A stretch of 64,000 nucleotides of DNA from Oscillospiraceae bacterium. Its GTDB lineage: Bacteria > Bacillota > Clostridia > Oscillospirales > JAAYXM01. The notes under the pieces were generated by a model. It did not search any database. It saw nothing but the letters and a program-made list of their open reading frames with translations, and was not told where the DNA came from. Of this stretch, positions 10,126 to 62,115 are shown in pieces. Every line of letters begins with the position of its first letter. Position 1 is the first letter of the stretch. Where the stretch lies: assembly GCA_015067485.1 (NCBI GenBank), contig SVMJ01000005.1:28528-92527 (forward strand), read 5' to 3'. Made by a program: the position numbers and the translations under genes.

Positions 10126-10256
10126 GTTGGCGCATTGTAAATAAGCGCCATATCAACACAAAATCGATCCGTGTGCGGCACATCTCTAAACTCACCACTC
10201 ATAACTTAAAACTAAACACTAAAAAAGGCTTCGGACTTTCGTCCGAAGCCTTTTTC
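10126..10256 (+). ncRNA. Candidate ~130-nt small RNA
   Basis: The transcript predicted from the promoter at 10091-10119 would begin with a hairpin (GGCGC/GCGCC, with TGTT/AACA extending it across a bulge). It then crosses an unstructured A/C-rich stretch and ends at the terminator GGCTTCGGAC-TTTC-GTCCGAAGCC plus T5 (10222-10256). No start codon with an RBS opens a meaningful frame. The same hairpin works in reverse for the minus-strand peptide gene. Confidence 0.4.
10222..10256. terminator. Bidirectional terminator between the candidate sRNA and small-peptide gene 1
   Basis: 10-bp GGCTTCGGAC stem, TTTC loop, with A6 before and T5 after, so it can act on both strands. Confidence 0.85.
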
Positions 10257-10265
10257 TTTGTTTGC

Positions 10266-10397
10266 TTATACAGCCGGAATGTCCAGGTCGCCGTCGACGC
10301 CCCACATGTCATCCACGAAGTTTTCACTTGTAGTCATGACATCCGCCTGCTGGAACAGGGAAATTTCCAGTTCCGGTACTTCATAAATGTTTTTCAT
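10266..10397 (-). CDS. Small peptide 1 of the Y..PELE...DVMT.S pattern, downstream of a secreted Big_2 protein
   Basis: A 43-residue ORF below the track cut-off: MKNIYEVPELEISLFQQADV, then MTTSEN and an acidic tail ending IPAV. GGGAG lies upstream of the ATG, and the gene is 18 bp after the stop of the 1226-residue secreted protein, so they form one transcript ending at the terminator at 10222-10256. A second copy of the same pattern follows the paralogous gene at 14513. There is no signal peptide. Function unknown; the strict motif conservation argues that it is translated. Confidence 0.7.
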   Translation of the reverse strand: MKNIYEVPELEISLFQQADVMTTSENFVDDMWGVDGDLDIPAV

Positions 10398-10415
10398 GTC
10401 TGTAATCTCCCTTCC

Positions 10416-13400
10416 TTAGTTTGCTGCTGCGCAAATGTCGCATTCAGGATTTACCGAGTGGTAAATCTCTGCAGCGCATTCCTTTGCTTCCTGCTTTTCA
10501 CCCTGCTTCGGATTCTTGTGAATTGCTTCCGCAATCGTGAGAATAGAGCGCGGTTCGGAGCAGTTGCCATAAACCACGGTGCCGTCCTTCAAAATCATAT
10601 AAGAACGAGCGATGATTTCACGGCCGTAGTTTGCCGGTGCGATGTTGATCAGAACTGCGGTGTACGAAACACTATCACCGTTGTCTTTATACCATCTTGC
10701 AGCAGTATTCGGGCAGTCTGCAACAGTGTAGCCGTTCAGCTTTGCACCGAGTTTGATGTCATTGGTGGTATATTTGGTTGCGCCGTCGAGTGCCTTTGCC
10801 GGAATCAAAACAGTACCGATTGTCTCCACATCGTCCAAGAGTTCCTTGTCGATGGTGCTAACAAAGCGCAAGCCCATCGGATCATTGTAACGCATGGATG
10901 CACCTGCGGTGGTGGAGATCGCACCGTCGATGAGACGGATCAGGTTGATCGCATCAAGGAAGAAATAACGATCCTTGTAGCCGGTTTCAAGTTCGCCGGT
11001 TTCCGGGTTGGTGTAAGAATCGCTGTTGTAAGCTGCTTCCTTCTTGACCCACAGGACGTATTCTCCTGCTTCGAGAGCCTTGGGTGCAGCAGACATGGAG
11101 ACCATGTTTTCCACGTCGCCTGTCGCACCGCCCCACGGAACGCTTACAAACTTGTTTTCTTCAACAAGAGATTCTTCCATGTATGCCGTCTTAGCAGCCA
11201 TGGTGGTGAGAGCGGTTGCCGGAGCCTTGGAGATATAGAGATCAGCATCTGCGGAGTTTGTGACAGTATCAGAAATCACCTGTGCTGCATAAACGCCGGA
11301 CTTTGCGACATTGACCTTGATCGCGTAGTACTTACCGATCGCAACGACATTCGACCATGTGTAGGAAGAAGCGTTAAGAGACGGAGTACCATCATACTGG
11401 AAGAATTCCCAGTTGCCGTAGCCTTCGGTGCTTTCAGTGGTTGCGTTCAGGAGTGCTGTTGCGCTGTTTGCAACTGCGAAGTCCTGAATTTCGTACTTGC
11501 TGATTTCACCAACGGTAAGGTCGATGGAATCGGACTGACCGTCGATGGTTGCGGTGATGGTAACATTGCCGATCTTGTGGCCGGTTACAACGCCGCCGTT
11601 TACGGTTGCGATGCTATCGTCGGAAGATTCCCAAACGATGTCAGCTTCACGGTAGCCTGCAGATTCCGGATCAAGAACCGGGGTAATGGTTACCGGCTGA
11701 TCGGTACATACCAAAGTGGTATCTGCAGTCAGTTCAATGCCGGTAACCGCAACATCGCCAACTCTGAAGAGCTGCAATGCATCGATGAAGAAGTAACGGT
11801 CATTCTGACCATTTTCGGTTTTATCGGTTTCCGGGTTGACATAGGTTCCGTTGTTCCAGTTATAGGAAGGTTCTGCCTTGATCCAGAGTGCATATTCTTC
11901 GCCTTCGACGAGCGCGAACTGAGTAGTACCAACATGTTCCTGGTTGTGCATGTTGCCAACCGGTCTACCCCAGGTGATGTGGGTAACCTTATTTGCTTCT
12001 ACAAATGCTTCAGCGGTACTTTCGACGCTTGCCTTGGTGAGATAAACATCACCGTCAGCAGAAGAACTCCAAACGTCCATGATTGCCTTTGCAGTGTACA
12101 TGCCGGATTCTTTTGCGGTAAACTTGATTGCATAGTATCCGGAGACGTAAATTACATCGGTCGGGTTATAATCTGCGCCAATGTAGACAACCGGGGTAGC
12201 ACTGTAGGAATGCACGGTCCAATCACCGTAATTTGCAGTGGAAACACCTTTTTCTGTGTTTGCAGTTTCCAGAATGCTCGCGCTCTGACCATTTGTAGTA
12301 ATGGTTTTACTGTCGATGACATAGTCCTGAATTTCGAAGTCGTACTTCTTTTCGCCAACCACTACTGTAACAGAGTCGAACTTGCCGCCTGCAGTTGCAG
12401 TGATGGTTGCAGTACCAGCCTTGACCGCGGTAAGAATCCCGGTTTCTTCATCGAAGGATACAGCATCGCCCTGGACAGACCATACAGCATCTTCAACCGC
12501 CGGTTCAACGGTTGCGGAAAGAGTGCAAGTATCGCCAACAATCATGGACTGACCGTCTTCCACGCCGGAAATGGTAACATTGGAAACCAAAAGTTCACGA
12601 ATCTTATAGAGTTCCAATGCGTCTGCAAAGAAATAACGGTCACCGTTACCGTTGATGAGATCGCCGGTGTCGGGTTCATAATGGCCATACTTATTGGTGG
12701 CATTAGCAAATTCTTCATATTTGGTATAGGAAGATTCCTTTTTCAGCCACAGAGTATATTCCTGACCTGCAATCAAATCAAGTTCAGTATGTCCGCCAAA
12801 TTCCACGTCGGCGGTATTGCCCATGCGCTTACCCCAATCGATGTGAGCAACCTTATTCTCTTCTACGAATGCCTGCGCACTGGTGGTTTTCACACCATCA
12901 ATCTTCGCCGGGGTGAAATAAACATCACCGCCAGCAGACGAATTCCAAACGTCCATAATTGCATTCAAGCCATATACGCCGGTTTCCTGTGCAGTGAAAC
13001 TGATTGCATAGTATCCGACGACCTCAATTACATCGGTCGGGTTATAAGCTGCGCCAGTGTAGAAATCCGGGGTGTCACTGTAGGAATGTACGGTCCAATC
13101 ACCGTAGTTTGCAGTAGAAACACCTATTTCTGTGTTTGCAGTCTGCAGAATGGGCAGATCTTTGCCGTTTTCAACTTTACCATTTTCAACGACATAGTCC
13201 TGAATTTCAAAGGTTTGCTTCAGGGTGCCGCCAACGATTACGCTAACGGAAGCAGATTTTCCGGCACAAGTTGCGGTGATAGTTGCAACACCGTCAGCAA
13301 CCGCGGTAACAACGCCACCGTCTACGGTTGCAACTTCGTTATCGGAAGACTTCCAAGTAACATCCATGTTTGCTGCACTTGCCGGAATGACATTTGCAGT

Positions 13401-14096
13401 AAGGTTCATGGTATCGCCGGCTTCCAAACGGGATTCAGCACCGGTGAGATAAATACCGATTCCGCCAGCCTTGTAGAGATTCAAGGTGTCGAGCGGAACA
13501 AATGCCTGGCCTAAATCGCCATTCGGATCGTCCTGAACAAACCAAAGATGGTAGAACCCTTCAGCCAACGCAACTTCTTTAGTCGAAGTTGCCTTATGCC
13601 CGGTTACAACAGTTGCACTGTCCATATCCGGGATGTCAATCAAAAGGTTCTCAGCCTTTTCTGCTTCTGCCAATGTCAAAACAGAGTCATCAGTGAGATA
13701 GAAATGTGCGGTAGTGTTACGGTTCTGATTCATCGAGTCAAAGATGACTTCCGGAGTATATACACCGCTCTCATCTACACGGATGACGAAGAGCATTGCA
13801 GACTTCGCTGTATACCCATCCAACAAATAGAAAAGCGGTTCGCTACCAGCTACTGAAGCATAGGTGAATTTTTTTCCTGTTACGGTGGATGGAGTAACAT
13901 AATCACTACCTGCTGCTTGCCAATTCAGGTCGGTACTGTACTGGAATACAGTTTCGCTGGATGCTGCAGCCGCTGCCTTGAACTTATAGCTTAGGGTCGG
14001 CTCGGTTGTTGCTGCGCTTGCAGAGAGCATACCGACAGGCAGAAGACTGACGAGCATGCAGACAGCAAGCAAAAGGGATAAAATGCGTTTTTTCAT
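10416..14096 (-). CDS. Large secreted protein with Big_2 (bacterial Ig-like) domains and internal repeats
   Basis: 1226 residues with a signal peptide (MKKRILSLLLAVCMLVSLLP ... SASAA). Then come an N-terminal region and three cycles of a Big_2 domain (pattern VTWKSSDNEVATV ... GVATITAT) followed by a ~180-residue repeat that starts EIQDYVV, has YGDWTVHSYS, and closes with DRYFFADALELYKI. A C-terminal domain contains ASMRYNDPMGLRFVSTI, near-identical in type to the end of the paralogue at 14627. No sortase LPxTG, dockerin or catalytic motif is visible. It is probably an extracellular or cell-surface binding protein. RBS AAAGGAGG. Confidence 0.8.
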   Translation of the reverse strand: MKKRILSLLLAVCMLVSLLPVGMLSASAATTEPTLSYKFKAAAAASSETVFQYSTDLNWQAAGSDYVTPSTVTGKKFTYASVAGSEPLFYLLDGYTAKSAMLFVIRVDESGVYTPEVIFDSMNQNRNTTAHFYLTDDSVLTLAEAEKAENLLIDIPDMDSATVVTGHKATSTKEVALAEGFYHLWFVQDDPNGDLGQAFVPLDTLNLYKAGGIGIYLTGAESRLEAGDTMNLTANVIPASAANMDVTWKSSDNEVATVDGGVVTAVADGVATITATCAGKSASVSVIVGGTLKQTFEIQDYVVENGKVENGKDLPILQTANTEIGVSTANYGDWTVHSYSDTPDFYTGAAYNPTDVIEVVGYYAISFTAQETGVYGLNAIMDVWNSSAGGDVYFTPAKIDGVKTTSAQAFVEENKVAHIDWGKRMGNTADVEFGGHTELDLIAGQEYTLWLKKESSYTKYEEFANATNKYGHYEPDTGDLINGNGDRYFFADALELYKIRELLVSNVTISGVEDGQSMIVGDTCTLSATVEPAVEDAVWSVQGDAVSFDEETGILTAVKAGTATITATAGGKFDSVTVVVGEKKYDFEIQDYVIDSKTITTNGQSASILETANTEKGVSTANYGDWTVHSYSATPVVYIGADYNPTDVIYVSGYYAIKFTAKESGMYTAKAIMDVWSSSADGDVYLTKASVESTAEAFVEANKVTHITWGRPVGNMHNQEHVGTTQFALVEGEEYALWIKAEPSYNWNNGTYVNPETDKTENGQNDRYFFIDALQLFRVGDVAVTGIELTADTTLVCTDQPVTITPVLDPESAGYREADIVWESSDDSIATVNGGVVTGHKIGNVTITATIDGQSDSIDLTVGEISKYEIQDFAVANSATALLNATTESTEGYGNWEFFQYDGTPSLNASSYTWSNVVAIGKYYAIKVNVAKSGVYAAQVISDTVTNSADADLYISKAPATALTTMAAKTAYMEESLVEENKFVSVPWGGATGDVENMVSMSAAPKALEAGEYVLWVKKEAAYNSDSYTNPETGELETGYKDRYFFLDAINLIRLIDGAISTTAGASMRYNDPMGLRFVSTIDKELLDDVETIGTVLIPAKALDGATKYTTNDIKLGAKLNGYTVADCPNTAARWYKDNGDSVSYTAVLINIAPANYGREIIARSYMILKDGTVVYGNCSEPRSILTIAEAIHKNPKQGEKQEAKECAAEIYHSVNPECDICAAAN

Positions 14097-14152
14097 TGTC
14101 TTGTTTCCTCCTTTGAAATTTTATAATAAGGTATAATAAGACACTACTAGAA

Positions 14153-14180
14153 ATTATAGCAGACGCTCCAAAAAAATCAA
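14153..14180 (-). promoter_or_regulatory. Promoter of the 1226-residue secreted protein gene
   Basis: Minus-strand TTGATT (14175-14180), 16-bp spacer, TATAAT (14153-14158), about 55 bp before the start codon. Confidence 0.6.
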
Positions 14181-14284
14181 GTACTTTTTTCGTTTTTTTG
14201 AATTTTTTTCTTTTTTCATAGGAAATACATCCGACGAGCCCTTATGGCCCCTGTGTTTTGGTAACATTCAACAAAAAAAGGCGT

Positions 14285-14460
14285 CGAACCGAAGAAATGA
14301 TGTTTCAAGCATTGCTTGAAATGATGTTGCTTTGCAATGAGGCATTTGTCCTCGCCAAATATGATGTTCTGTTTGCCCATAAACATTTGCGCAGCAAACA
14401 TCATTACGTAGTACCATCATTTCTGCAAGAAACATCATTTGCCCGCAAGGCAAACAGAGT
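14285..14460. repeat. Cluster of AATGATGTT / AACATCATT units separated by short hairpins
   Basis: Within about 175 bp the 9-mer AATGATGTT or its complement occurs at least five times, with near-variants (ATGATGTTC, CCATCATTT). The spacers are themselves small palindromes such as TCAAGCATTGCTTGA and TTTGCCCGCAAGGCAAA. No reading frame with an RBS fits. It lies between small-peptide gene 2 and the promoter of the next secreted protein gene. Together with 14097-14284 this is the only content of the 416-bp gap. Confidence 0.7.
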
Positions 14461-14471
14461 TCCACAAAACA

Positions 14472-14503
14472 AAAAGGCACGGAACCGAAGTTCCGTGCCT
14501 TTC
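14472..14503 (-). terminator. Terminator after small-peptide gene 2
   Basis: AAAGGCACGGAAC-CGAA-GTTCCGTGCCTTT perfect stem, T-rich on the minus-strand 3' side, 10 bp after the peptide stop codon. Confidence 0.85.
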
Positions 14504-14512
14504 GTTTTGTGG

Positions 14513-14614
14513 TTATGCCCAGGGATATTCCTGGAGATTATCACTTTCGGTCATGACGTCTTCAGCAGTGAAGACCACGACTTCGAGTTCCGGTGCGTTG
14601 TATTCCTTATTCAT
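14513..14614 (-). CDS. Small peptide 2 of the Y..PELE...DVMT.S pattern
   Basis: A 33-residue ORF missing from the track: MNKEYNAPELEVVVFTAEDV, then MTESDNLQEYPWA. It shares with small peptide 1 the pattern K.Y..PELE[IV]..F...DVMT.S[ED]N and the same position, directly after a secreted Big_2-type gene (12 bp after its stop) and before a terminator. RBS AAGGAGGACCAAC. It has no export signal of its own and no modification enzyme nearby. Function unknown. Confidence 0.7.
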   Translation of the reverse strand: MNKEYNAPELEVVVFTAEDVMTESDNLQEYPWA

Positions 14615-14626
14615 TGTTGGTCCTCC

Positions 14627-16519
14627 TTACTGTGCGTTTGCGATGATCGCTTCGAATGTTGCTTTTTCCTGTGCAGTTGCGTTCGGGTTTTCAAGACCGA
14701 GTTCTGCGACTCGGTAGATGGAACGGGCTGTGGTATTGCCATAGATGTAGGAACCGTCAGAGAGTTTTGCATAAGCACGTGCAGTGATCTCTGTCTTATA
14801 CGCGGAGTACGGGATATTGTAGAGAACCGCGGTGAACTGGTATGCACTATCGGTTACCTTGTAGAGCTTTTCAGCCGGAACGATCGCTACACTTTCAGTT
14901 TCGCTGCTCAATTCTTCATCACCGAGCATAGCAGTCGGGATCAGCATTGTGCCGTATTCGACAACATCTTCTGCCAAGGACTTCGGAATGCTGGAGATGA
15001 AGCGGATACCCATCGGTTCTTCGATACGAACTGCCGCACCGTCAACGGTTGCGAGTTCGCCGAGCATATAGAGTTGGAGCGAATCAATGACCAGGTAACG
15101 GTCATAATTGCCGCTTCCGGTTTCATTGGTTTCCGGGTTAACATAAGAGCCGCCGGAATAAGACGCATTACAGACGAAGGTTACCGTATAGTCGCCTGCG
15201 GTGAGCAAGACTGCGTCGCCAAGAACGGAAAGGTCATCAGCCTTTGCGGTTGCCCACGGGATGCTGACCAAGTCGATCTGATCGGTGGTTTTCTTCTTAG
15301 TGATGAAGACTTCACCGTCTGCGGAAGAAGGCCAAGCATCATAGGTCATCTGAGCGCGGTAGAGTCCGGTTTTCGCGATCGAAACGTCAATGGAGAAATA
15401 CTTTCCGTTACCGGAGAGATAGATCTGTCCGTTGTAGTGGAAACCTGCGTTACGGGAACCGGTATATGCCCAACCACCGAAGTCTTTGGTATCTTCTGCG
15501 GTTACACCTGCATTGTTATCGAACGCTGTCGTGAGAGAATCGTAATATGCTTCGATCTGCTAGTCATTTGCTTTTTCCGCAACGGTGATGACAACCGAGT
15601 CGGTCAAATCGCCAACGGTTGCGGTAACAGTCGCAAAACCGATTCCGACTGCCTCGATGACACCGTTTTCAACAGTAACAACAGATGCATCGGAAGTGGA
15701 CCATTCAGCTGACTGATATGCTGCTGCCGCCGGAAGGATTGCTGCCGAGAGTTCTGCGGTAACACCGACTTCGAGAATCCCGGTCGGAGCGTTTTCGATC
15801 ACAACAGATTCTGCCGGAACTTCGCCGACTTTGTAGAGATTGAGTTTGTCCATGCAGAAATAACGATCACGACTACCCAAAGTCCAGCCTTCCGCATTGG
15901 TGAGAACGCCATCGACGTAATCGGGCTTCTTTGCCGGAATCGGTTCACCCGGAGCAACGTGATAGTCTTCAGTTCTGCCGGTTTCCGGATTTACGTTTGC
16001 GGTACGGCACCAGGAAGCATTCGCCTTAAAGTAGATGGTATATTCACCTTCGGCGAGTTGGAAGTCCTCTGCACTTTCCGCAACAATACCCAATGCATCT
16101 GCATCTGCCCACGGAATGTCAACAATCTTATACCGATCATCGATTGCGTTGTTAGTACCGTACGGAGCGATATAGACTGCTGCGTCTGCAGAAGTGGTAG
16201 TGGTATCATAAATCATTTCTGCACGGTAGAGACCCGGTTCGTTGATGGTAACGTTGACACCATAGTAACCGTTTCCCATATAGATCTTGCCACTGTAGGA
16301 CACGCCCGCACTACGAGCGCCGGTGAAAGACCATGCACCATAATCTGCAGTCTGTTCCTTAGAGATGCTGTTGTTCAAAGAACTGATGCTATTGTCAGCA
16401 GCATAGTCTTTGATTTGGATGCTGTAATCGGGAGTTGCATCTGCCGCGACACCGACGACCGGCAAGAGACTTACCAGCATGCAAACCGCAATTACGAGAG
16501 ATAATACGCGCTTTTTCAT
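14627..16519 (-). pseudogene. Second secreted Big_2-type protein, interrupted by an in-frame TAG
   Basis: One continuous frame of 631 codons with a single amber codon at 15560-15562, so the track shows it as two ORFs (15560-16519 and 14627-15349). The N-terminal part has a signal peptide (MKKRVLSLVIAVCMLVSLLP), a repeat ending in DRYFCMDKLNLYKV and a Big_2 domain. After the stop come a second repeat (FGGWAYTGS) and the same C-terminal domain as the paralogue (AAVRIEEPMGIRFISSI). At the stop the paralogue repeats carry Tyr or Phe (KYEIQD/DFEIQD against D-stop-QIEAY), so a TAC/TAT-to-TAG change is likely. Readthrough or a sequencing error cannot be excluded. RBS AAGGAGGAG. Confidence 0.75.
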
Positions 16520-53095: not shown

Positions 53096-53626
53096 ATGAA
53101 ACTAAATTATTTTTTTAAATGCGAGGCAGACCAATTTACTTTTTACCGTCTGCCGAAGATTCTGGTGGTAAATGAGATGTTTTCGCACATTTCCTACGGT
53201 GCGAAGATTCTCTACGGACTGCTTCTTGACAGAATGGGATTATCCCTTTCAAATCACTGGCACGATGAATTCGGCAGAGCGTATATCATCTACAGCATCG
53301 TCGAGATTATGGAAGATATGAACTGCTCAAAAGCGACGGCAATCAAGATGATGTCCGAGCTTGAAGATGCAGGACTGCTTGAGAAAAAGAGGCGTGGTCT
53401 GGGACTTGCGAATATTATTTATCTTAAAAAGTTTATAGCGATCGAAAATCAAGAAGTTCAAACTTTAGACTTCAGGAGTCAAGATAGCAGTATTCCAAGA
53501 AGTATAAAATGCGAACTTCAAGAAGTCTAAACCTTAAACCCTAATAATACTAAACCAAATAATAATTACTGTAAAAATACTTATTCAATCATATCGTATC
53601 AAGATGTGATGAGAAACGAGGTGTAA
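53096..53626 (+). pseudogene. repA: Replication initiator RepA (RepA_N), interrupted by an in-frame TAA and shortened
   Basis: The first 144 codons are a clear RepA N-terminal domain: FTFYRLPKILVVNEMFSHIS, AKILYGLLLDRMGLS and DMNCSKATAIKMMSELEDAG. A TAA at 53528-53530 stops it, but the same frame continues for 32 codons (TLNPNNTKPNNNYCKN...) in the Asn-rich linker style of these proteins, so a CAA-to-TAA change after CELQEV is likely. The usual C-terminal half (total 250-350 residues) is missing. RBS AAGGAGG. Probably inactive as an initiator, although the winged-helix domain alone could still bind DNA. Confidence 0.8.
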
Positions 53627-53628
53627 AA

Positions 53629-54543
53629 ATGAACATAGGACTAAAAAGTTATGAGGATTTATTCAAGGACGAGAAAGGCAGAAAAACAGAGGAAATCGTC
53701 CCTGTGGATATTAAGGATTTAAAACCATATACAGAGCAACCGTTCAAGGTTCTTCTTGATAACAGCATGGACGAGCTTTGTGCAAGTATTGAGCAATACG
53801 GAATACTATCGCCCGTAATTGTGCGACCGCATAAGGATGGCGGATATGAAATTCTGTCGGGACACCGCCGAGTAAAGGCGTGTGAGCTTTTGGGCATTGA
53901 GGAAGTCCCTGTTGTAGTAAAAGAACTTGATGACGATACGGCAGCAATACTGCTCGTTGACAGTAACCTACAACGCGAAAACATCCTTCCCAGTGAAAAG
54001 GCATTTGCTTATAAATTAAAGCTTGAAGCCATTAAAAGAAAAGCTGGCAGACCATCGAAAGAAAATGGTGGACAATTCGTCCACGATTTTTTGGATGACA
54101 AATCAAGAGACCTACTTGGCAAAGAAACTGGAGATAGTGGCAGACAAATTCAACGCTATATTCGTTTAACAAATCTTATCGATCCGCTTCTTGAATTGGT
54201 GGATAAGAACGAAATGGCAATGAGTGCAGGTGTTGAGCTTTCATATCTTGGCTCAAAGCTTCAATCGGAGATTTATAAAATTGTCGAGCGTGAAGCAACG
54301 CCGCCGTCAATCGCTCAAGCGGCAAAACTTCGTAAAACCTCAGAGGATGGAAACCTTGATGAAGCCACTCTTGAATTTATCCTGACAGCGCAGAAAGAAC
54401 CGGGGATTAAACTTGTCATCTATGAGGACAAGCTCCGTCGCTACTTCCCCAAGAGCTACACCAAAGAGCAGATTGAAGATACGGTTATGAAACTGATTCA
54501 AAAGTGGCACAAGAATCGGGAAAAAGAAAATTCCCGAGGATAA
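53629..54543 (+). CDS. parB: ParB/Spo0J-family partition protein
   Basis: 304 residues. The ParB/Srx N-domain has VDIKDLKPYTEQPFK, IEQYGILSPVIVRPHK and ILSGHRRVKACELLG (the CTP-binding GHRR motif), with DSNLQRENILPSEKAFA. The central HTH is near 150-200 (KETGDSGRQIQRYIRLTNL), and a C-terminal region follows. In elements of this type parB follows repA and assists partition or regulation. It starts 2 bp after the repA frame ends; no parA is seen. Confidence 0.92.
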   Translation: MNIGLKSYEDLFKDEKGRKTEEIVPVDIKDLKPYTEQPFKVLLDNSMDELCASIEQYGILSPVIVRPHKDGGYEILSGHRRVKACELLGIEEVPVVVKELDDDTAAILLVDSNLQRENILPSEKAFAYKLKLEAIKRKAGRPSKENGGQFVHDFLDDKSRDLLGKETGDSGRQIQRYIRLTNLIDPLLELVDKNEMAMSAGVELSYLGSKLQSEIYKIVEREATPPSIAQAAKLRKTSEDGNLDEATLEFILTAQKEPGIKLVIYEDKLRRYFPKSYTKEQIEDTVMKLIQKWHKNREKENSRG

Positions 54544-54599
54544 AATTTTGAAGAATAGTGGGTATCCAAACTAAAATTAAAACGAAAGGAGCGATAAAA

Positions 54600-54962
54600 A
54601 TGATTACATACTCAAAGTCAGGCAATATCTTGTTGCCCAATCTTAAAGTTCCCGAACCGCCCAAAGAACCCCTTGGCATCTACGGCAGAACGAGAAGAGA
54701 TTATCTTAAAAAGAACCGCCACAGCATCTACTCTGCCCTGATGCTTAAAGGAACGCTTTTAGAACATCTTGCGGAAGTTGATAAAACCTGCCGTGAGGAA
54801 GTTGAGCTTCGCATAAAGGCAGAGGCAGAAAAACAAGGCATTACGGAAGAGCTTAAGGCGCAGGATATGCTCAAATGGACAGGACTTATGAACAACATCA
54901 AAAACTCGGTGAGAGAGCAAATAACGCACGAGTTTGTGTATGCCGAGGAGGGACTACAATGA
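54600..54962 (+). CDS. TnpV-family mobile-element protein
   Basis: 120 residues: SKSGNILLPNLKVPEPPKEP, LGIYGRTRRDYLKKNRH and LLEHLAEVDKTCREEVE match the TnpV pattern found in Clostridial conjugative and mobilisable elements. Function unknown. AAAGGAG precedes the ATG at 54600. It overlaps the next gene by 4 bp. Confidence 0.78.
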   Translation: MITYSKSGNILLPNLKVPEPPKEPLGIYGRTRRDYLKKNRHSIYSALMLKGTLLEHLAEVDKTCREEVELRIKAEAEKQGITEELKAQDMLKWTGLMNNIKNSVREQITHEFVYAEEGLQ

Positions 54963-55246
54963 GTTTTATAGAAGAATTTTTCTACGGCAACATTAACCCC
55001 AATGTGAAACGCTATGACCAGAACGGCAGTTATGCAAAGGCTATGCGGAGATTCTGCGACAATGAAGACGAGCTTAACAAAATGCTCAAAGGAAAACCAC
55101 TTCATATGTTTTTAGACCTTGTAAACGCTCACGATGAAATAGTCGGCATAACAAGCTTTGAAAACTTCAAGCTTGGGTTCAGGTTAGGTGTGCAGATGAT
55201 TTGCGACGCCTTGGTGTGCGACGACGGAGTATTCAAAGATTTATAA
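54959..55246 (+). CDS. Small mobile-element protein (DUF6809-like), function unknown
   Basis: 95 residues starting MSFIEEFFYGNINPN, mostly helical, with FKLGFRLGVQMICDALVCDD at the end; this matches the DUF6809 pattern of Clostridial mobile elements. The start is the ATG at 54959, overlapping the tnpV stop (ATGA), with GAGGAGGG upstream; the tracked start 28 codons earlier lies inside tnpV. Confidence 0.65.
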   Translation: MSFIEEFFYGNINPNVKRYDQNGSYAKAMRRFCDNEDELNKMLKGKPLHMFLDLVNAHDEIVGITSFENFKLGFRLGVQMICDALVCDDGVFKDL

Positions 55247-55250
55247 AGCG

Positions 55251-55445
55251 GTAACGCCTGTCAGATGACGGGCGTTATTGTTATTTGTGGCAAGCATAGC
55301 ATTTGGACAAACAAATGCATTAGCAAGCACGGCATTTTGACAACCAAAAAGCCAATAATGAAAATTTGTTTTAGCAAGCACGGAAATTTGACATCAAATT
55401 TTCCATTCTTAGGGGCACGCCCCTAATACCCTAATTAAATTTTAA
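55251..55445. repeat. Repeat region, candidate oriT, upstream of mobC
   Basis: After a hairpin (TAACGCCTGTC/GACGGGCGTTA, 55252-55277) come three related units with the core AGCAAGCAYRGMATTTGACA. Each ends in the complement of its own middle: GCATTTG..CAAATGC, GGCATTTTG..AAAAGCC, GGAAATTTG..CAAATTTTCC. A final palindrome TTAGGGGCACGCCCCTAA (about 55410-55427) resembles the nick region of mobilisable elements. Its place directly before MobC-like genes supports an oriT; the nick site is not proven. Confidence 0.55.
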
Positions 55446-55457
55446 GGAGACGATATT

Positions 55458-55793
55458 ATGAGAACAAGAAAACATCAATTTACAATGCGATTAAGCGACA
55501 AGGAGTATAACGCCCTTATGAGGCAGGTTAAAAAGGCAGGAACAAACCGAAGCGCAGTTATCCGCAAGCTTATTATGGAGTGTAAAGTCAAACAGCGACC
55601 GGAGGAAATCTTTGAAGAAATGGCAGATAGAATTAAAGTACACCGCTTAGAAATGGACGAGATCACAAAAGAGTGTGCCCTCACCCGAACGGTAACAAAT
55701 GAACAGCTCGACCGCATAGGAGAGTTGCAGATGAAAGTCAAAGAAATCATTGAGGAATACGAAGACTGCTTTGCGGATGAGGAGACATTATGA
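55458..55793 (+). CDS. MobC-like relaxosome accessory protein (ribbon-helix-helix type)
   Basis: 111 residues: QFTMRLSDKEYNALMRQVKKAG and NRSAVIRKLIMECKVK form an N-terminal ribbon-helix-helix DNA-binding domain, followed by a helical, coiled-coil-prone tail. Such proteins bind oriT next to a MobA relaxase. RBS AAGGAG. It overlaps the next gene by 4 bp, but no relaxase gene follows. Confidence 0.78.
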   Translation: MRTRKHQFTMRLSDKEYNALMRQVKKAGTNRSAVIRKLIMECKVKQRPEEIFEEMADRIKVHRLEMDEITKECALTRTVTNEQLDRIGELQMKVKEIIEEYEDCFADEETL

Positions 55794-56092
55794 GCAGCAC
55801 AAAACTCGTAATCAGGCTAAACGATGAGGAACGGGCGAAGCTTGATAAACTAAAGGAGAAAACACTCTTGACGCAAAAAGGCATCATACGCAATATCCTT
55901 TTGGGATATAATATTCCCGTAAAAGTGCCAGATTCCTATACTAACTTTATGCGACATATCAACAGCCTGTCGTATTACACATTCAAACTCAAAGTCCAAG
56001 CTGATATAGCCAGCGCGAACCAACTCGACCAAATCGAGCAACTTGACCATAATATAGAAGAAATAATGAAACTGGCATTGTCTTTTATCTAA
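55790..56092 (+). CDS. Second small ribbon-helix-helix mobilisation-type protein
   Basis: 100 residues: TKLVIRLNDEERAKLDKLKEK and LLTQKGIIRNILLGYNI resemble the MobC-like neighbour, followed by a helical tail. It is probably a relaxosome accessory or autoregulator. In intact elements a relaxase would come next; here a terminator and then the restriction cargo follow. Confidence 0.65.
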   Translation: MSSTKLVIRLNDEERAKLDKLKEKTLLTQKGIIRNILLGYNIPVKVPDSYTNFMRHINSLSYYTFKLKVQADIASANQLDQIEQLDHNIEEIMKLALSFI

Positions 56093-56095
56093 CAC

Positions 56096-56137
56096 GCAGG
56101 GAGAGGAGTTCACCGAACTTCTCTCCCTGCTCTTTTG
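56096..56137 (+). terminator. Terminator after the mobilisation genes
   Basis: GCAGGGAGAGGAGTT-CACCG-AACTTCTCTCCCTGC 15-bp stem (one G-T pair) followed by TCTTTTGTATTTTA. Confidence 0.9.
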
Positions 56138-56180
56138 TATTTTATGAAACAACAAAAATGTTGATGTACCGACATTTTCG

Positions 56181-56210
56181 TTGACTTTTCGACATCAGAA
56201 GTGGTATAAT
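56181..56210 (+). promoter_or_regulatory. Promoter of the restriction-modification operon, with CGACAT repeats
   Basis: TTGACT, 18-bp spacer, TATAAT, about 50 bp before the HTH gene. CGACAT occurs twice (about 56170 and 56190), flanking and overlapping the -35 box. This is the kind of place where a controller protein would bind its own promoter. Confidence 0.7.
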
Positions 56211-56260
56211 TCATAGTGAGATGTTGTATAAATTTTACCGTTTTGAAAGGATGAAACAAA

Positions 56261-56488
56261 ATGGCAGTTACCTATAATAAACTCTGGCACTTACTGATCG
56301 ACAGAGGTATGAAAAAGAAAGACCTGCAAGAAGCGGCAGGCCTTACAAACCACACAATGCTCAAACTCCGCAAAGACCAGGACATCACCACCGAAACCAT
56401 CGGTAAGATATGCAAAGCACTCGGTTGTGACTCGACCGATATCATGGAGTTTTACGAGAACGATAATAGCAAGGTGGACACATTATGA
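56261..56488 (+). CDS. Small HTH (Xre/Cro-type) regulator, probable controller of the R-M system
   Basis: 75 residues, almost entirely one HTH: KLWHLLIDRGMKKKDLQEAAGL, TNHTMLKLRKDQDITTETIGKI and CKALGCDSTDIMEF. Size and position match C (controller) proteins of type II restriction-modification systems, which delay endonuclease expression after entry into a new host. Its stop overlaps the methyltransferase start by 4 bp (ATGA), so the order is C-M-R in one transcript. The controller role is inferred. Confidence 0.82.
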   Translation: MAVTYNKLWHLLIDRGMKKKDLQEAAGLTNHTMLKLRKDQDITTETIGKICKALGCDSTDIMEFYENDNSKVDTL

Positions 56489-58686
56489 AAAATAAAAAGC
56501 ATTATTATATTTCACTTTTTACTGGTGCTGGCGGTCTTGATATTGGGTTTAAAGAAGCAGGTTTTAAAGGTTTACTTGCGAGTGATATAATGCCTCAGGC
56601 AAAAGATACATACGATTTTAATTTCCCTGATGAAACATATCTGTTAAAAGATATTAGAAAATTATCCATTGCAGAAATTAAGTCTTTTATTGGAAACAAA
56701 AAAGTTGATGTTATTATTGGTGGCCCACCATGTCAAGGCTTTTCGAATATGGGAAATAAAAACTCGGCAGATCCGAGGAATATGCTTTTCGAAAGCTATG
56801 TAAAAATAGTGGATGCCATTCGCCCAAAATGTTTTGTTTTTGAAAATGTCAAGGGTTTATATACTATGTTTGAAGGACGCTATTTTAGCCAAGTTGTTAA
56901 AGCGTTTTTATCCATTGGATATAATTTGCATTACTCTATGCTTGATACATCAAATTATGGCGTTCCGCAAAAACGAGAAAGAATATTTATAGTTGGAACG
57001 ACATCTGATGACCAATTTCTTTTCCCAGAACACAGCAATACTTCTTACGGTACAATTAAATCTTTTATCAATGTTGGGGAAGCAATAAATGATCTTACCT
57101 ATAAGGGTGAAGAAGTGGCAAATCACATAGCACTAAACCATTCGGAAGTTGTTGTCAGAAGATATAAGCTAATCCCTGAAGGCGGTAAATTACCAAAACC
57201 AGAAGAGTTGCCAGAGGATATCAGGCGAAAGAATTTTGGCAATACCTATACTCGCTTACATCGGAACGAACTATCTTCAACAATCGTTCCTGGAAATAAT
57301 GCACTTCCTGTTCATCCGGTCCTCAATCGTAGTCTTACGCCTAGAGAGGGGGCACGCATACAAACATTTCCTGATTATTATATTTTTAAGGGCGATCGTA
57401 GGTCGCAGTGCATACAGGTAGGAAATGCTGTCCCGCCCCTTATTGCCGCCAAAATAGCTGATTGTGTTCGTCACTTCATTGATGGCGAGGCCTATAATGG
57501 AATTATGCCTGACAATTCTGTTTTTGTAAAAACGGGAGTTGAAAAATCTTTGTGCAAAGTTCGCAAAGCAAAGCGAGCTACACTTAAATTTGGTGATTTA
57601 TTCTGTGGCGCAGGGGGCTTTACCAAAGGATTAGAACAAGCAGGCTTGGAATGCGTGTTGGGTGCAGAGTTTAATGAATATGCTGTTGAAGCTTATCGCA
57701 AAAATTTCACTCATGAATGTCTTCAAATTGATCTATCAACAGAAGAAAATCAGATATTAGTTGCTGAAAAATTGAAACGTCAAAAGGTGGATCTGGTTGT
57801 TGGCGGACCTCCGTGTCAAGGATTTTCCATATTTGGAAACAGGAGGTTTGTTAACACAAAAAATCATGACTTGACTAAAGACCAGAGAAACAACTTAGTG
57901 TATGCGTTTGCAAATATTGTAGTTCGCTCTGAAACCCCTTGGTTTATAATGGAAAATGTACCAGGTATTCTTTCAGCACATAATGGTGAATATGTCAATA
58001 CAATTAAGAAATATTTCAATGAACATGGATATCGGACTGAGCATAGAATTATAAATGCTGCAGATTATGGTGCGCCACAATTAAGACGTAGATTCATACT
58101 AATTGGAACTAAAACAGATTTTGCTTTTCCATTCCCGAAGGCAAAGTATTTTGAAAACCCCGAATCTTGGCAACATCCATACAGAACTGTTGAAGAGGTG
58201 CTGACTGATTTGGTGGATGAAGAAACTTTAGGGAAACTAAAAAACCATCGAGCACCGAGTCATTCCAAAATTGTAGCAGAGCGATTCTCATATATCCCTG
58301 AGGGAGGGAAGATGGATGTAGAGTTGTTGCCTGAACATTTGAAGCTAGGAACAAAAACAGGAAAACCCGTAGCAAACTTCAGTCATGTTTTTGCTAGATT
58401 GGATCGAAAAAAACCTTCTTGCACAATTGTTCCAGGACATAATGCTCTTCCCGTGCATCCCACACTTAATAGAACATTGACTGTAAGAGAAGCCGCACGC
58501 ATACAAACATTTCCCGATGATTTTGAGTTTGTAGGACCTATTATTAATCAATGTTTGCAAGTAGGAAATGCATTTCCGTGTATTGTGGCACAGACCTTCG
58601 GAGAAAGATTACGAACGGTTATTAACAAAGAATGGAATGACGAGTCTGCAACACATCTTGCGAAAAAATCAATGTTAGAGGAGTGA
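56485..58686 (+). CDS. DNA cytosine-C5 methyltransferase with two complete domains in one chain
   Basis: 733 residues. Domain 1 (about 1-345) has YISLFTGAGGLDIGFKEAG, catalytic IIGGPPCQGFSNMG, VFENVKGL, YGVPQKRERIF and RIQTFPDYY/QVGNAVPP. Domain 2 (about 370-720) repeats the full set: FGDLFCGAGGFTKGLEQAG, VGGPPCQGFSIFG, MENVPGIL, YGAPQLRRRF and RIQTFPDDF/QVGNAFP. Both keep the PC nucleophile, ENV and QRR-type motifs, so both look active. The two target-recognition regions differ, which fits a system with an asymmetric site in which each domain methylates one strand. The sequence is AT-rich. Confidence 0.92.
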   Translation: MKNKKHYYISLFTGAGGLDIGFKEAGFKGLLASDIMPQAKDTYDFNFPDETYLLKDIRKLSIAEIKSFIGNKKVDVIIGGPPCQGFSNMGNKNSADPRNMLFESYVKIVDAIRPKCFVFENVKGLYTMFEGRYFSQVVKAFLSIGYNLHYSMLDTSNYGVPQKRERIFIVGTTSDDQFLFPEHSNTSYGTIKSFINVGEAINDLTYKGEEVANHIALNHSEVVVRRYKLIPEGGKLPKPEELPEDIRRKNFGNTYTRLHRNELSSTIVPGNNALPVHPVLNRSLTPREGARIQTFPDYYIFKGDRRSQCIQVGNAVPPLIAAKIADCVRHFIDGEAYNGIMPDNSVFVKTGVEKSLCKVRKAKRATLKFGDLFCGAGGFTKGLEQAGLECVLGAEFNEYAVEAYRKNFTHECLQIDLSTEENQILVAEKLKRQKVDLVVGGPPCQGFSIFGNRRFVNTKNHDLTKDQRNNLVYAFANIVVRSETPWFIMENVPGILSAHNGEYVNTIKKYFNEHGYRTEHRIINAADYGAPQLRRRFILIGTKTDFAFPFPKAKYFENPESWQHPYRTVEEVLTDLVDEETLGKLKNHRAPSHSKIVAERFSYIPEGGKMDVELLPEHLKLGTKTGKPVANFSHVFARLDRKKPSCTIVPGHNALPVHPTLNRTLTVREAARIQTFPDDFEFVGPIINQCLQVGNAFPCIVAQTFGERLRTVINKEWNDESATHLAKKSMLEE

Positions 58687-58691
58687 AAAAT

Positions 58692-59930
58692 ATGGCATTA
58701 AATCATCATGTTCTCGCCAAAGCAACCACCGATGCGATTTTGCAGAATTTTAAATCCGCGATATGGAAATATAACGGAGATTGCGGTGCGGATTTTTATA
58801 GAGTCGGCACGAGCGCAGATTTCCCTTCTCCTGATGCAGCATTTTACGATCCAAAAAACAAAAAACTTGCCTCTTTTGAGTTTAAACCTGCAACAGAAAC
58901 AAAAAGAGGAATGCTTACGGGGGTTGGTCAGAGTATCGCTTATTTAAAGAATTGTGATTTGGCATATCTTATTTCTCCTCATATCATTGATGGATTTAAT
59001 ATGGGAGAATTTTTGACCGATGTATACGAAAATCAAATTGGAAACAAAGTTCCCGTTGGATTAATTCTTTACGACAATAATAATCCTAACAATTTGACCT
59101 TGGCTCATAATGTAGATGAGCTTTCAACATCAAAAGCCGTTCACATACACAAGCCGACAGCAGACCGTTTTTGGGCAAAGCATCAAGATTTGCCAATTGC
59201 TATGTTTCATTTGCTCTTACATTACTACTATCTTAAAAAGGTAGGAATGTTCGAGGGTGATGCTTTTTCTGCTTGCTGGAATGAAAGGATGATACCGGAG
59301 AATATTCTTGATGACTTTGTTGTTAAACCTGTAAAAGATATTTCAGGAAATATTATCGGAACGCTTCAAACCAACAAGCCTCTAACATTCTTGGAGAAAA
59401 TAATTCCCGCTATTCAAAAGAAAGAACCACGAGACCAATGGTCAGTAAAATTAAGACATGCAATTGATGCAACATATATCGGCGATAACTATTATAATTC
59501 CATAAGAAAGAATTATGTGACTTTTCTTAAACACATTCAAGTTGTAGATTCAGAAGGATGCTTGACAGATTCTGGGTTTAATCTTTATCATGTTGGTCTA
59601 TCTAATGGTCCGACAAGTAAACTTTTTGTGGATTATTTTACAAGAGAGGTTTTAACAGTTGGTCATCACTTGGATTTGTTACTTGATATTGATTCAATTT
59701 CTCAAAAATATCCTGATAAAGACATAGACGAGGTTTTAACTATATTAGAAACTGAGTACGAACTTAAGGGGTACATAAAACGCAATCCTAAAAGGATTGC
59801 CGGAGACGAATCTAAGACGGGATTTCTCAAGTATGAGAAAATTTTGTGGCAGTCTCTTGGCCTTATGGATAGCAAATATAATATTTCTTGGAAAAGAATT
59901 ACAGAGATTTGCTCGTTGCCCGAGCTTTGA
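58692..59930 (+). CDS. Probable type II restriction endonuclease (PD-(D/E)xK type)
   Basis: 412 residues; family not recognised by name. The N-terminal half has a likely nuclease core: SPDAAFYDPKNKKLASFEFK (D...ExK arrangement) followed by GVGQSIAYLKNCDLAYLIS, as in PD-(D/E)xK enzymes. The C-terminal half (about 240-412) is unassigned and could recognise DNA. The start is the ATG at 58692 with GAGGAG upstream, 5 bp after the methyltransferase stop. Position after a C gene and a methyltransferase makes the restriction role likely; the recognition site is unknown. Confidence 0.75.
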   Translation: MALNHHVLAKATTDAILQNFKSAIWKYNGDCGADFYRVGTSADFPSPDAAFYDPKNKKLASFEFKPATETKRGMLTGVGQSIAYLKNCDLAYLISPHIIDGFNMGEFLTDVYENQIGNKVPVGLILYDNNNPNNLTLAHNVDELSTSKAVHIHKPTADRFWAKHQDLPIAMFHLLLHYYYLKKVGMFEGDAFSACWNERMIPENILDDFVVKPVKDISGNIIGTLQTNKPLTFLEKIIPAIQKKEPRDQWSVKLRHAIDATYIGDNYYNSIRKNYVTFLKHIQVVDSEGCLTDSGFNLYHVGLSNGPTSKLFVDYFTREVLTVGHHLDLLLDIDSISQKYPDKDIDEVLTILETEYELKGYIKRNPKRIAGDESKTGFLKYEKILWQSLGLMDSKYNISWKRITEICSLPEL

Positions 59931-60118
59931 AAGGGCGGTTGTATTATAGCAAATGAGTAAGCAAAGGTGTTAAAAAGGTGATTCTATAATTCTGCAACAA
60001 TTTGCAAAACAAAGTATTCAGGAAACCAAGTCTATGGCCACCGGTGATTCAATCCGTTATTTTAATTAAACAAAAGTGATAACAAATTCTTATTCTGTGT
60101 TGAAGGGAGTATCGATTT
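59931..60118 (+). other. Intergenic gap with a possible protein C-terminus remnant
   Basis: 188 bp without a complete gene. One frame reads LQQFAKQSIQETKSMATGDS and ends IRYFN-stop at about 60069, like the tail of a lost gene, with no start or RBS. A GAAGGGAG RBS for the HAD gene lies at the end. No clear terminator for the restriction operon was found. Confidence 0.35.
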
Positions 60119-61030
60119 ATGTCAAATATTATAGCAGTTGTTTGGGATTTTGATAAAACTTTAATTAGCGACTATATGCAAGCCCCTATTTTTAAAAAGT
60201 ATGGCGTGGATGCTAAACAGTTTTGGAAGGAAGTGAATGAACTTCCTACTAAATACTTATCAGAACAAAATGTTAAAGTAAATCCCGACACAATATATTT
60301 AAACCATTTTATAAACTATGCCAAAGCCGGAAAATTCAAAGGATTGAATAACGCTCTTCTTCGTGAATTAGGAAAAGAGTTGAAGTTTTATAATGGACTC
60401 CCTGCGCTTATGGAAATAAGCAAAAAGATGATTGAGGATGATCCGATTTATTCAGAATATGATATAAAGGTTGAACATTATATAGTAAGTACAGGTTTTA
60501 CCGAAATGATAAAAGGATCAGAAGTCAATGATTATGTATCCGGAATTTGGGGATGCGAATTAATAGAAGCTCCTGATGAAGATGGAAATGCGGTTATTAG
60601 CGAAATCGGATATACAATTGACAACACAACTAAAACAAGAGCAATTTTTGAAATTAATAAAGGTGTAGGAATTTGGGAAGATGTCAATGTAAATACCAAA
60701 ATGGCTGAAGATCTGCGAAGAGTTCCTTTAAGAAACATGATATACATAGCTGATGGGCCGAGTGATGTGCCTGCGTTTTCAACATTAAATAAGGGTGGTG
60801 GAGCTACTTTTGCAATTTACCCCCGTAACGACATAAGGGCATTTTCGCAAGTGGAGCAATTGCGAAAGGACGGAAGAATAAATATGTATGCAGAGGCCGA
60901 CTATTCTGAAGGCACAACTGCATACATGTGGATAACAGGAAAAATCAAAGAATTTGCAGACAGAATAAGAGAAACTGAGCGTTCGAAGTTAAAGAGTTCT
61001 ATTTCTGATGTTCCCAAACACCTTACGTAA
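60119..61030 (+). CDS. HAD-superfamily hydrolase, first gene of an uncharacterised cassette
   Basis: 303 residues. Motif I is VVWDFDKTLI and motif IV is YIADGPSDVPAFS, with a helical cap between (about 20-130) and IVSTGFTEMI as the likely motif II. It ends in a basic/helical tail (FADRIRETERSKLKSS). It resembles uncharacterised HAD phosphatases carried on accessory islands rather than a metabolic enzyme I can name. The nucleophile Asp is intact. It is followed 14 bp later by the GNAT gene; together with the ASCH gene it forms a three-gene unit. Confidence 0.75.
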   Translation: MSNIIAVVWDFDKTLISDYMQAPIFKKYGVDAKQFWKEVNELPTKYLSEQNVKVNPDTIYLNHFINYAKAGKFKGLNNALLRELGKELKFYNGLPALMEISKKMIEDDPIYSEYDIKVEHYIVSTGFTEMIKGSEVNDYVSGIWGCELIEAPDEDGNAVISEIGYTIDNTTKTRAIFEINKGVGIWEDVNVNTKMAEDLRRVPLRNMIYIADGPSDVPAFSTLNKGGGATFAIYPRNDIRAFSQVEQLRKDGRINMYAEADYSEGTTAYMWITGKIKEFADRIRETERSKLKSSISDVPKHLT

Positions 61031-61044
61031 GGAAGATATAAGCT

Positions 61045-62115
61045 ATGTTAGAAAAACTAAAACAGTTTAATTTTTCAGATATAAATTTAGATGACTGCTT
61101 TTTCGACTCCCTAAAAGCGGATTATGGTCCACAATTTATTGAGTGGTATACCAGAAAAGCAACTGAGGGCGCAAAAGCATTAGCTGTAGTAGACAATAGA
61201 GGTGTTCATGCATTCTTATACATGAAAAGAGAGAACGAAGAAATCGCAACCAAAGACATTGTTTTACCAAAAGCAGAAAGGGTTAAAATCGGAACTTTAA
61301 AACTTGATTCTACAGTTGAAGGCCAACGACTAGGAGAGGGTGTTATTGGCGTGGCTTTGTGGAAATGGCAATTGTCTAAAATCAGGGAAGTATATCTGAC
61401 TGTTTTTCCAAAACAAATTACTTTGATTAGTATGTTAGAAAAGTTCGGGTTTAAGCAAGTTGGCATAAAAGAAAATGGGGAATTAATTTTAATGAAATCC
61501 AGAGATAATATAGATTTTTCTTCCCCATACAAATCATTCCCGTTCATTTACAAAAAAGCAAATAGATTTGGACTTATACCTATAAAGGATATATTTCACG
61601 ATAAGTTATTTACATATTCTGAGTCTTTCTATAAACTCTCCGATTTTAAAGAAGCTATTGCCGGAAATGGTATTACAAAAGTATACATTGGATGCCCATA
61701 TACTTGTACTCAATATTCAGAAGGTCAAGTTGTTGGCATATACAGAATATATACAGGCAACGGTTCTAAAGGCAACAGATCTGCAATTACCTCTTTTTGT
61801 ACAATAACAAAAATCACAATTGTAAAATCGGACAATAAAGAAAATATGTCATTCGATGAATATATGAAAATGGCAGGTAATAAAACTATTTTTGAGTCAT
61901 CAGAACTTCGCTCTATATATAAAAGCAGAAATGTTATTATGATAGAAATGGTTTATAACACATTTCTTCCTAAAGGTAAAAATATAACATATTGGCAGCT
62001 GAAGAACAATCAATTGTTTGAAGATCATCCCTATAACATTGAGTATACTGCTGAACAAATGAAAAGCATAATGAAAATGGGAGGGGTTGACATTGAAAAT
62101 ATTATTATCGATTAA
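61045..62115 (+). CDS. GNAT acetyltransferase fused to a PUA-like (ASCH/EVE-type) domain
   Basis: 356 residues. The N-terminal half (about 1-155) is a GNAT fold: IGTLKLDSTVEGQRLGEGVI holds the acetyl-CoA Q/RxxGxG-type loop, and LEKFGFKQVGIKENGELIL gives the last strands. The C-terminal half (about 185-350) has KVYIGCPYTCTQYSEGQVVG, FCTITKITIV and NVIMIEMVYNTF, which looks like a PUA-like domain of the ASCH/EVE group that reads modified nucleic acids. The assignment is by eye. It overlaps the ASCH gene by 23 bp. Confidence 0.65.
   Translation: MLEKLKQFNFSDINLDDCFFDSLKADYGPQFIEWYTRKATEGAKALAVVDNRGVHAFLYMKRENEEIATKDIVLPKAERVKIGTLKLDSTVEGQRLGEGVIGVALWKWQLSKIREVYLTVFPKQITLISMLEKFGFKQVGIKENGELILMKSRDNIDFSSPYKSFPFIYKKANRFGLIPIKDIFHDKLFTYSESFYKLSDFKEAIAGNGITKVYIGCPYTCTQYSEGQVVGIYRIYTGNGSKGNRSAITSFCTITKITIVKSDNKENMSFDEYMKMAGNKTIFESSELRSIYKSRNVIMIEMVYNTFLPKGKNITYWQLKNNQLFEDHPYNIEYTAEQMKSIMKMGGVDIENIIID

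Follow-up and report, generated by a model that had tools for sequence, protein, structure and literature searches.

We examined a stretch of 64,000 nucleotides (hereafter the window) from an Oscillospiraceae bacterium of the order Oscillospirales (NCBI GenBank assembly GCA_015067485.1, contig SVMJ01000005.1, positions 28,528 to 92,527), in which two paralogous genes for secreted proteins, here called A and B, are each followed by a tiny open reading frame (ORF) encoding a candidate precursor peptide. An earlier note on this DNA had given the right coordinates for the two large genes, but both lie on the minus strand, as do their peptides, and the frame of B is broken by one TAG. Protein A (10416-14096; 1226 amino acids) comprises a signal peptide, repeats, three Big_2 domains (E = 3.6e-27, three stretches) and a C-terminal domain encoded at 10449-10916 (profile E = 2.8e-61 at C15:38976-39443). 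Protein B (14627-16519) combines a signal peptide and repeats with a single Big_2 domain and the same C-terminal domain, at 14630-15049 (profile E = 2.5e-57 at C15:43157-43576). Its TAG, codon 320 (15560-15562), sits just 3' of the Big_2 domain, and on either side of it the same reading frame stays open; 14627-16519 is a single gene only if this codon arose by mutation or misassembly or else undergoes readthrough. The C-terminal domain is without a Pfam or NCBIfam match. An AlphaFold2 model of the domain from a relative is predicted with confidence (predicted local distance difference test values mostly 80-94) to be beta-rich with two C-terminal helices. A PDB fold search for a known fold returned weak beta-sandwich matches only, the best being 1wzl with a TM-score of 0.40. 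Protein A also holds an internal duplication, two 180-nt segments (12097-12276 and 12973-13152) that are 86% identical and spaced 876 apart, and an interspersed-repeat-like tract with short inverted repeats around AAATGATGTTT lies on the plus strand between genes A and B (~14300-14460).

The ORFs of 33-43 codons reported 12-18 bp behind each secreted gene proved to be in place, each with a strong intrinsic terminator after it. Peptide A (MKNIYEVPELEISLFQQADVMTTSENFVDDMWGVDGDLDIPAV; 43 codons, 10266-10397) starts 18 bp past the stop of A and is followed by a terminator with a 16-bp stem (10221-10256, minus strand), and peptide B (MNKEYNAPELEVVVFTAEDVMTESDNLQEYPWA; 33 codons, 14513-14614) starts 12 bp past the stop of B, has a Shine-Dalgarno sequence (AAGGAGG) upstream and is followed by a terminator with a 14-bp stem (14472-14503, minus strand). 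Both putatively consist of a leader and a core. When aligned, they are identical at 14 of 33 positions, including P-E-L-E, F, D-V-M-T and S; of the shared pattern described earlier, the opening K.Y is found in peptide B only, peptide A reading K-N-I-Y. Neither Pfam nor NCBIfam gave a significant match to the peptides, and phages gave none to the region of peptide B.

A two-row profile built from peptides A and B detected five copies in the genome to which the window belongs (G000; 1.37 Mb, 83.3% complete), i.e., three beyond the window, of which one lies behind a third and one behind a fourth paralogue of the secreted family, and one stands unpaired after citrate synthase. G008 is a further species of the genus, and its loci correspond to the goat-cecum metagenome-assembled genome Oscillospiraceae RGIG1946; all five of its copies directly follow a protein of the same secreted family. 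Within the genus, whose genomes are incomplete, the gap between partner gene and peptide is 2-37 bp. Matching ORFs, sought in related genomes behind the genes of homologous proteins, were present there and, within the genus, hardly anywhere else, so that the check by which the earlier note could have been refuted came out in its favor; orphan copies occur in G003 and G006. The ratio of non-synonymous to synonymous substitution rates is ~0.1-0.4 for within-genus peptide pairs, indicating purifying selection. Judging from their sequences, peptides A and B are genuine genes, because they come with terminators, evolve under purifying selection and recur across the order.

We surveyed 245 genomes of the order with a broader profile and found the peptide family in 63 of them, with the leader consensus Y..PE[LI]E[IV]..F...D[VI].T.S. 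The motif [YF]xxP is present in 41 of 44 peptides, 36 of which have the strict YxxP form, and a conserved Ser lies exactly 19 residues past the Tyr in 35 of 37; outside the genus the cores vary widely. This leader points to a system for ribosomally synthesized and post-translationally modified peptides (RiPPs), in which a Tyr-x-x-Pro leader of the type bound by a RiPP recognition element (RRE) is well supported by sequence. The distribution of PqqD, the stand-alone RRE, agrees: PqqD was found in 112 of the 245 genomes, and a stand-alone copy occurs in 54 of the 63 peptide-positive genomes vs 39 of the 182 peptide-negative ones (Fisher p = 9e-20), leaving 9 genomes with the peptide only and 143 with neither. 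Moreover, of 122 peptides, 15 have a stand-alone PqqD no more than 5 kb away, where 0.8 would be expected. Two genomes devoid of PqqD (G004 and G005) gave no peptides with the narrow profile, in a search of nine genomes, and some with the broader one; the co-occurrence is therefore strong, not absolute.

The genes traveling with the peptides recur in a typical order, which starts with a large secreted protein, the peptide and an anchored protein (SLH, lipoprotein or single membrane span) and continues with an HprK-like kinase, PqqD, a SipW-like signal peptidase, an ATP-binding cassette exporter and NTP_transf_5. In the window's own genome, contig C5 encodes the RRE, the kinase and the nucleotidyltransferase at a distance of 3 kb behind a peptide gene. 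The RRE matches PF05402 (PqqD) with E = 3.6e-17 and is present in a single copy, and its nearest solved chains are lasso B1 proteins (TbiB1, E = 0.0045; 9x90, E = 0.005). The adjoining kinase has the P-loop GTGKST and matches TIGR04249 (ScmC; E = 1.1e-8) and TIGR04352 (E = 0.002), both below the curated cut-offs; such a kinase recurs next to PqqD across the order. Likewise, the nucleotidyltransferase (PF14907, E = 1.6e-48) recurs in the clusters of other genomes. Many relatives encode the SipW-like peptidase (TIGR02228, E = 2.5e-10), with S32, H72 and D87 invariant in all seven aligned sequences. The homolog in G008 (E = 1.4e-42) is adjoined by an MsbA-like exporter, which is also present in further clusters. 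All five gene types occur in G008, split over a C5-like locus and a second locus with the peptidase and the exporter. These co-traveling maturation genes, together with the RRE-type leader, lend good support to the earlier suggestion that the small ORFs encode the precursor of a signaling peptide, as far as precursor is concerned.

The same neighborhoods show two further protein tails. One of them, the C-terminal sequence G[WY][ST]GIY, is shared near the kinase by a membrane protein, the SLH protein and a small protein with a domain (..TDEGWSGIY, ..TTSDDGWTGIY and ..DAGYSGIY) at L028:1355-2692 and L045:10150-10998 on contig C5 of G000 and at L038 in G008, and G093 (C9, L222) has ..EGWSGIYKP. 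Another, approximately [IV]E[IV]G..GxIDLG[ED][IL]I.G, is common to PqqD-adjacent anchored proteins at L104, L128 and L145 (G196, G092 and G138) and does not match the local peptides.

The closest known counterparts are the linear polyphosphorylated peptides (LPPs; Popov et al., Nat Commun, published May 2026; PMC13381572). LPP loci encode a discrete RRE, an HprK-like kinase, a SipW/archaeal-type signal peptidase, an MsbA-like exporter and an NTP transferase; the RRE binds a YxxP leader, a signal-peptidase-like enzyme cuts after T-1 and several phosphates are placed on core Ser3, the biological role of the products being stated as unknown (PMC13381572). Across the peptide family we find the same gene set, with the peptidase and the exporter seen in G008 and other genomes, a YxxP leader, a Ser at fixed distance and no macrocyclase seen in the clusters. 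There are also differences: the LPP leader consensus is YxxPxVLxHQxIxFETxxS with a Tyr-Ser distance of 18 (PMC13381572), whereas the present leaders are without HQ or FET and have a distance of 19; the precursors are scattered behind surface-protein genes and share their core with fused C-terminal tags (see below); and they come from an Oscillospiraceae relative and its order, whereas LPP loci were studied in Bacilli. A YxxP-type leader, a stand-alone RRE, an HprK-like kinase and a nucleotidyltransferase are also shared with lasso peptides of the paeninodin/pseudomycoidin type (PMC8498205, PMC7533575, PMC13381572). A lasso product was rejected: the B2 transglutaminase-like leader peptidase (PF13471) is encoded in none of the nine family genomes. 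No macrolactam cyclase (Asn synthetase-like) was noticed on reading ~20 clusters, a reading that was not extended to a genome-wide search. We therefore file the peptides, whose leaders depart from the LPP consensus, as an LPP-like variant rather than LPPs sensu stricto, and those of the window are very probably LPP-like precursors that one machinery matures in trans.

What sets these precursors apart is the company of their cores. The profile of the C-terminal domain detects 11 proteins in G000 and 21 in G008, and 30 domain proteins of this one genus for which DNA was available fall into distinct groups: 11 have a DNDxx[D/W]PW tag fused to their C-terminus and no peptide, 9 have a peptide and no tag, and none has both (P = 0.006 if the proteins were independent, which paralogues are not). 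In most cases, the separate leader peptides behind the tagless proteins carry the tag themselves. Fused tags are found on GH25 (lysozyme), CHAP and heparinase-like proteins, and separate peptides, where tested, lie behind Big_2 proteins. Contig C2 of G000 holds a tandem of three secreted cell-wall enzymes (L245:2656-11852, minus strand; one CHAP and two GH25, all with SH3_3) with the end DNDASWPWN.

The same element recurs on the putative anchors. The peptide of contig C5 ends in DNDIADPWG, which is also contained in the SLH protein adjoining the kinase, and in G008 the sequence GDNDxxDPWA closes the peptides and is present twice in the SLH protein. Copies of the peptide core on the anchored neighbor were found in two families besides its own: in G093, peptide and SLH protein both end in EGDNGTGWG, and in G175 the tail of a lipoprotein repeats the core. 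Within G000, G008, G093 and G175, cores match the tails of their anchored proteins with a permutation p = 0.0002 (0.0013 without G008), values that serve as a guide only, the pairs having been assembled after the first matches were seen. Five further genomes (G025, G078, G125, G196 and G138) were tried, and their core-tail similarity was not clearly above that of mismatched pairs. Searched as a DNA pattern in the 245 genomes, DNDxxDPW gave 13 sites, 12 of them in the genus (G000 and G008) and one in the G093 peptide, vs one site for the reversed control; all of them fall within the peptides, SLH tails or protein C-termini of the system. Three of the in-genus matches, one with a mismatch, were new, and each forms the very C-terminus of a secreted protein.

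Short C-terminal elements common to many secreted proteins of one genome are familiar from the LPXTG/sortase and PEP-CTERM/exosortase systems. The present tag resembles these sorting signals in its distribution and differs in being short, acidic and Trp-ended, in having no membrane segment and in also existing as a separate leader peptide. A literature search, with subscription papers mostly outside its reach, found no earlier description of surface-protein-linked precursors, and the genomic logic by which a tag is either fused or separate was likewise not found described.

The best explanation, to which we assign a probability of roughly 0.6, is that the small ORFs encode LPP-like RiPP precursors, the matured core of which would be provided in trans as a tag or ligand at the surface. 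The Tyr-x-x-Pro leader would be bound by the single stand-alone RRE of the genome (PqqD, contig C5), the adjoining HprK-like kinase would (poly)phosphorylate the conserved Ser 19 residues past the Tyr, and, once a SipW-like signal peptidase had cut the leader off just before this Ser, the core, which is short, acidic and often Trp-ended, would leave through an MsbA-like exporter. Phosphorylation and cleavage are drawn by analogy from the LPPs (PMC13381572). Unlike at published LPP loci, the precursors are scattered, each encoded directly behind a large tagless surface protein, and the matured core would act in the same surface assembly as this operon partner. It is because the core is the same DNDxx[D/W]PW element as the fused and SLH tags that we infer a surface tag or ligand. 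That such a tag is provided to the tagless proteins is a tentative proposal, which would account for the choice between fused tag and peptide, for the strict adjacency and for the SLH-anchor copies. Somewhat more doubtful is its fullest form, in which the RiPP pathway would make C-terminal surface tags in trans, the leader-borne copy being modified, freed and exported and then completing or attaching its partner in an SLH-anchored layer. For the earlier note, which had offered a localisation tag among its suggestions, this amounts to independent support for that suggestion, the core motif being the tag fused to sister secreted proteins and present on an SLH-anchored protein; for a chaperone, nothing was found in support, and the note's interpretation as a whole is partly supported.

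Several observations weigh against this explanation. The peptides do not show the LPP consensus HQxIxFETxxS. No homolog of the SipW-like peptidase was found in G000, which is 83.3% complete, and the evidence for the exporter comes from G008 and other clusters, G000 not having been searched for it. Among the 30 domain proteins, ten carry no tag and are followed by no peptide, the cores of peptide A (ENFVDDMWGVDGDLDIPAV) and peptide B (DNLQEYPWA) are only loosely DNDxxDPW-like, and outside the genus the link between core and tag amounts to three cases (G093, G175 and, weakly, G031). The fused tags are without the conserved Ser, and a phosphate therefore cannot be a feature common to tag and peptide. 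Finally, the AlphaFold2 model leaves the fused tag disordered and undocked; such predicted disorder is as expected for a short linear motif.

Alternatively, the peptides could be ordinary LPP-like RiPPs that act outside the cell in an unrelated capacity, as signal or antimicrobial, their adjacency to surface-protein genes reflecting only co-expression and their core being a by-product of duplication or of a shared surface chemistry. The gene set identical to that of published LPPs, the diversity of cores outside the genus and the peptides behind unrelated genes (citrate synthase in G000; the orphans in G003 and G006) would all suit this account, which nevertheless predicts neither the fused-or-separate pattern nor that GH25, CHAP and heparinase-like proteins should have the tag as their extreme C-terminus, and we regard it as unlikely. 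Less probable still is a free inhibitor or plug that mimics the surface tag and competes for a tag-binding site until the partner is in place: it would fit the same core on peptides, sister proteins and SLH anchor as well as the close spacing of peptide and partner gene (2-37 bp within the genus), yet no tag-binding site was identified and the modeled fused tag did not dock. Readthrough of the stop codon would turn the ORFs into a C-terminal extension of the secreted protein, and both window peptides happen to share the reading frame of the gene before them (18 nt beyond it for A, 12 nt for B). This reading is rejected because relatives do not keep the frame (about one third of their copies are in frame), each peptide has its own start, that of B with a clear Shine-Dalgarno sequence, and leader and core are conserved together with an N-terminal Met.

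Elsewhere in the window, a probable mobile element was recognized by eye at ~53096-62115 (plus strand), with replication and ParB-like genes and a DNA cytosine methyltransferase (56485-58686) accompanied by a partner gene.

The preferred explanation, LPP-like precursors with a core that would serve at the cell surface, provides a first testable idea of what LPP-like peptides may do, namely contribute to the assembly of cell-surface proteins rather than act as free antibiotics, because genes for surface proteins immediately precede those of the precursors, whose core is found again on sister proteins and on the SLH anchor. A further implication is that many ORFs of 30-50 codons now unannotated in the order, where the family reaches 63 of 245 genomes, could be annotated.

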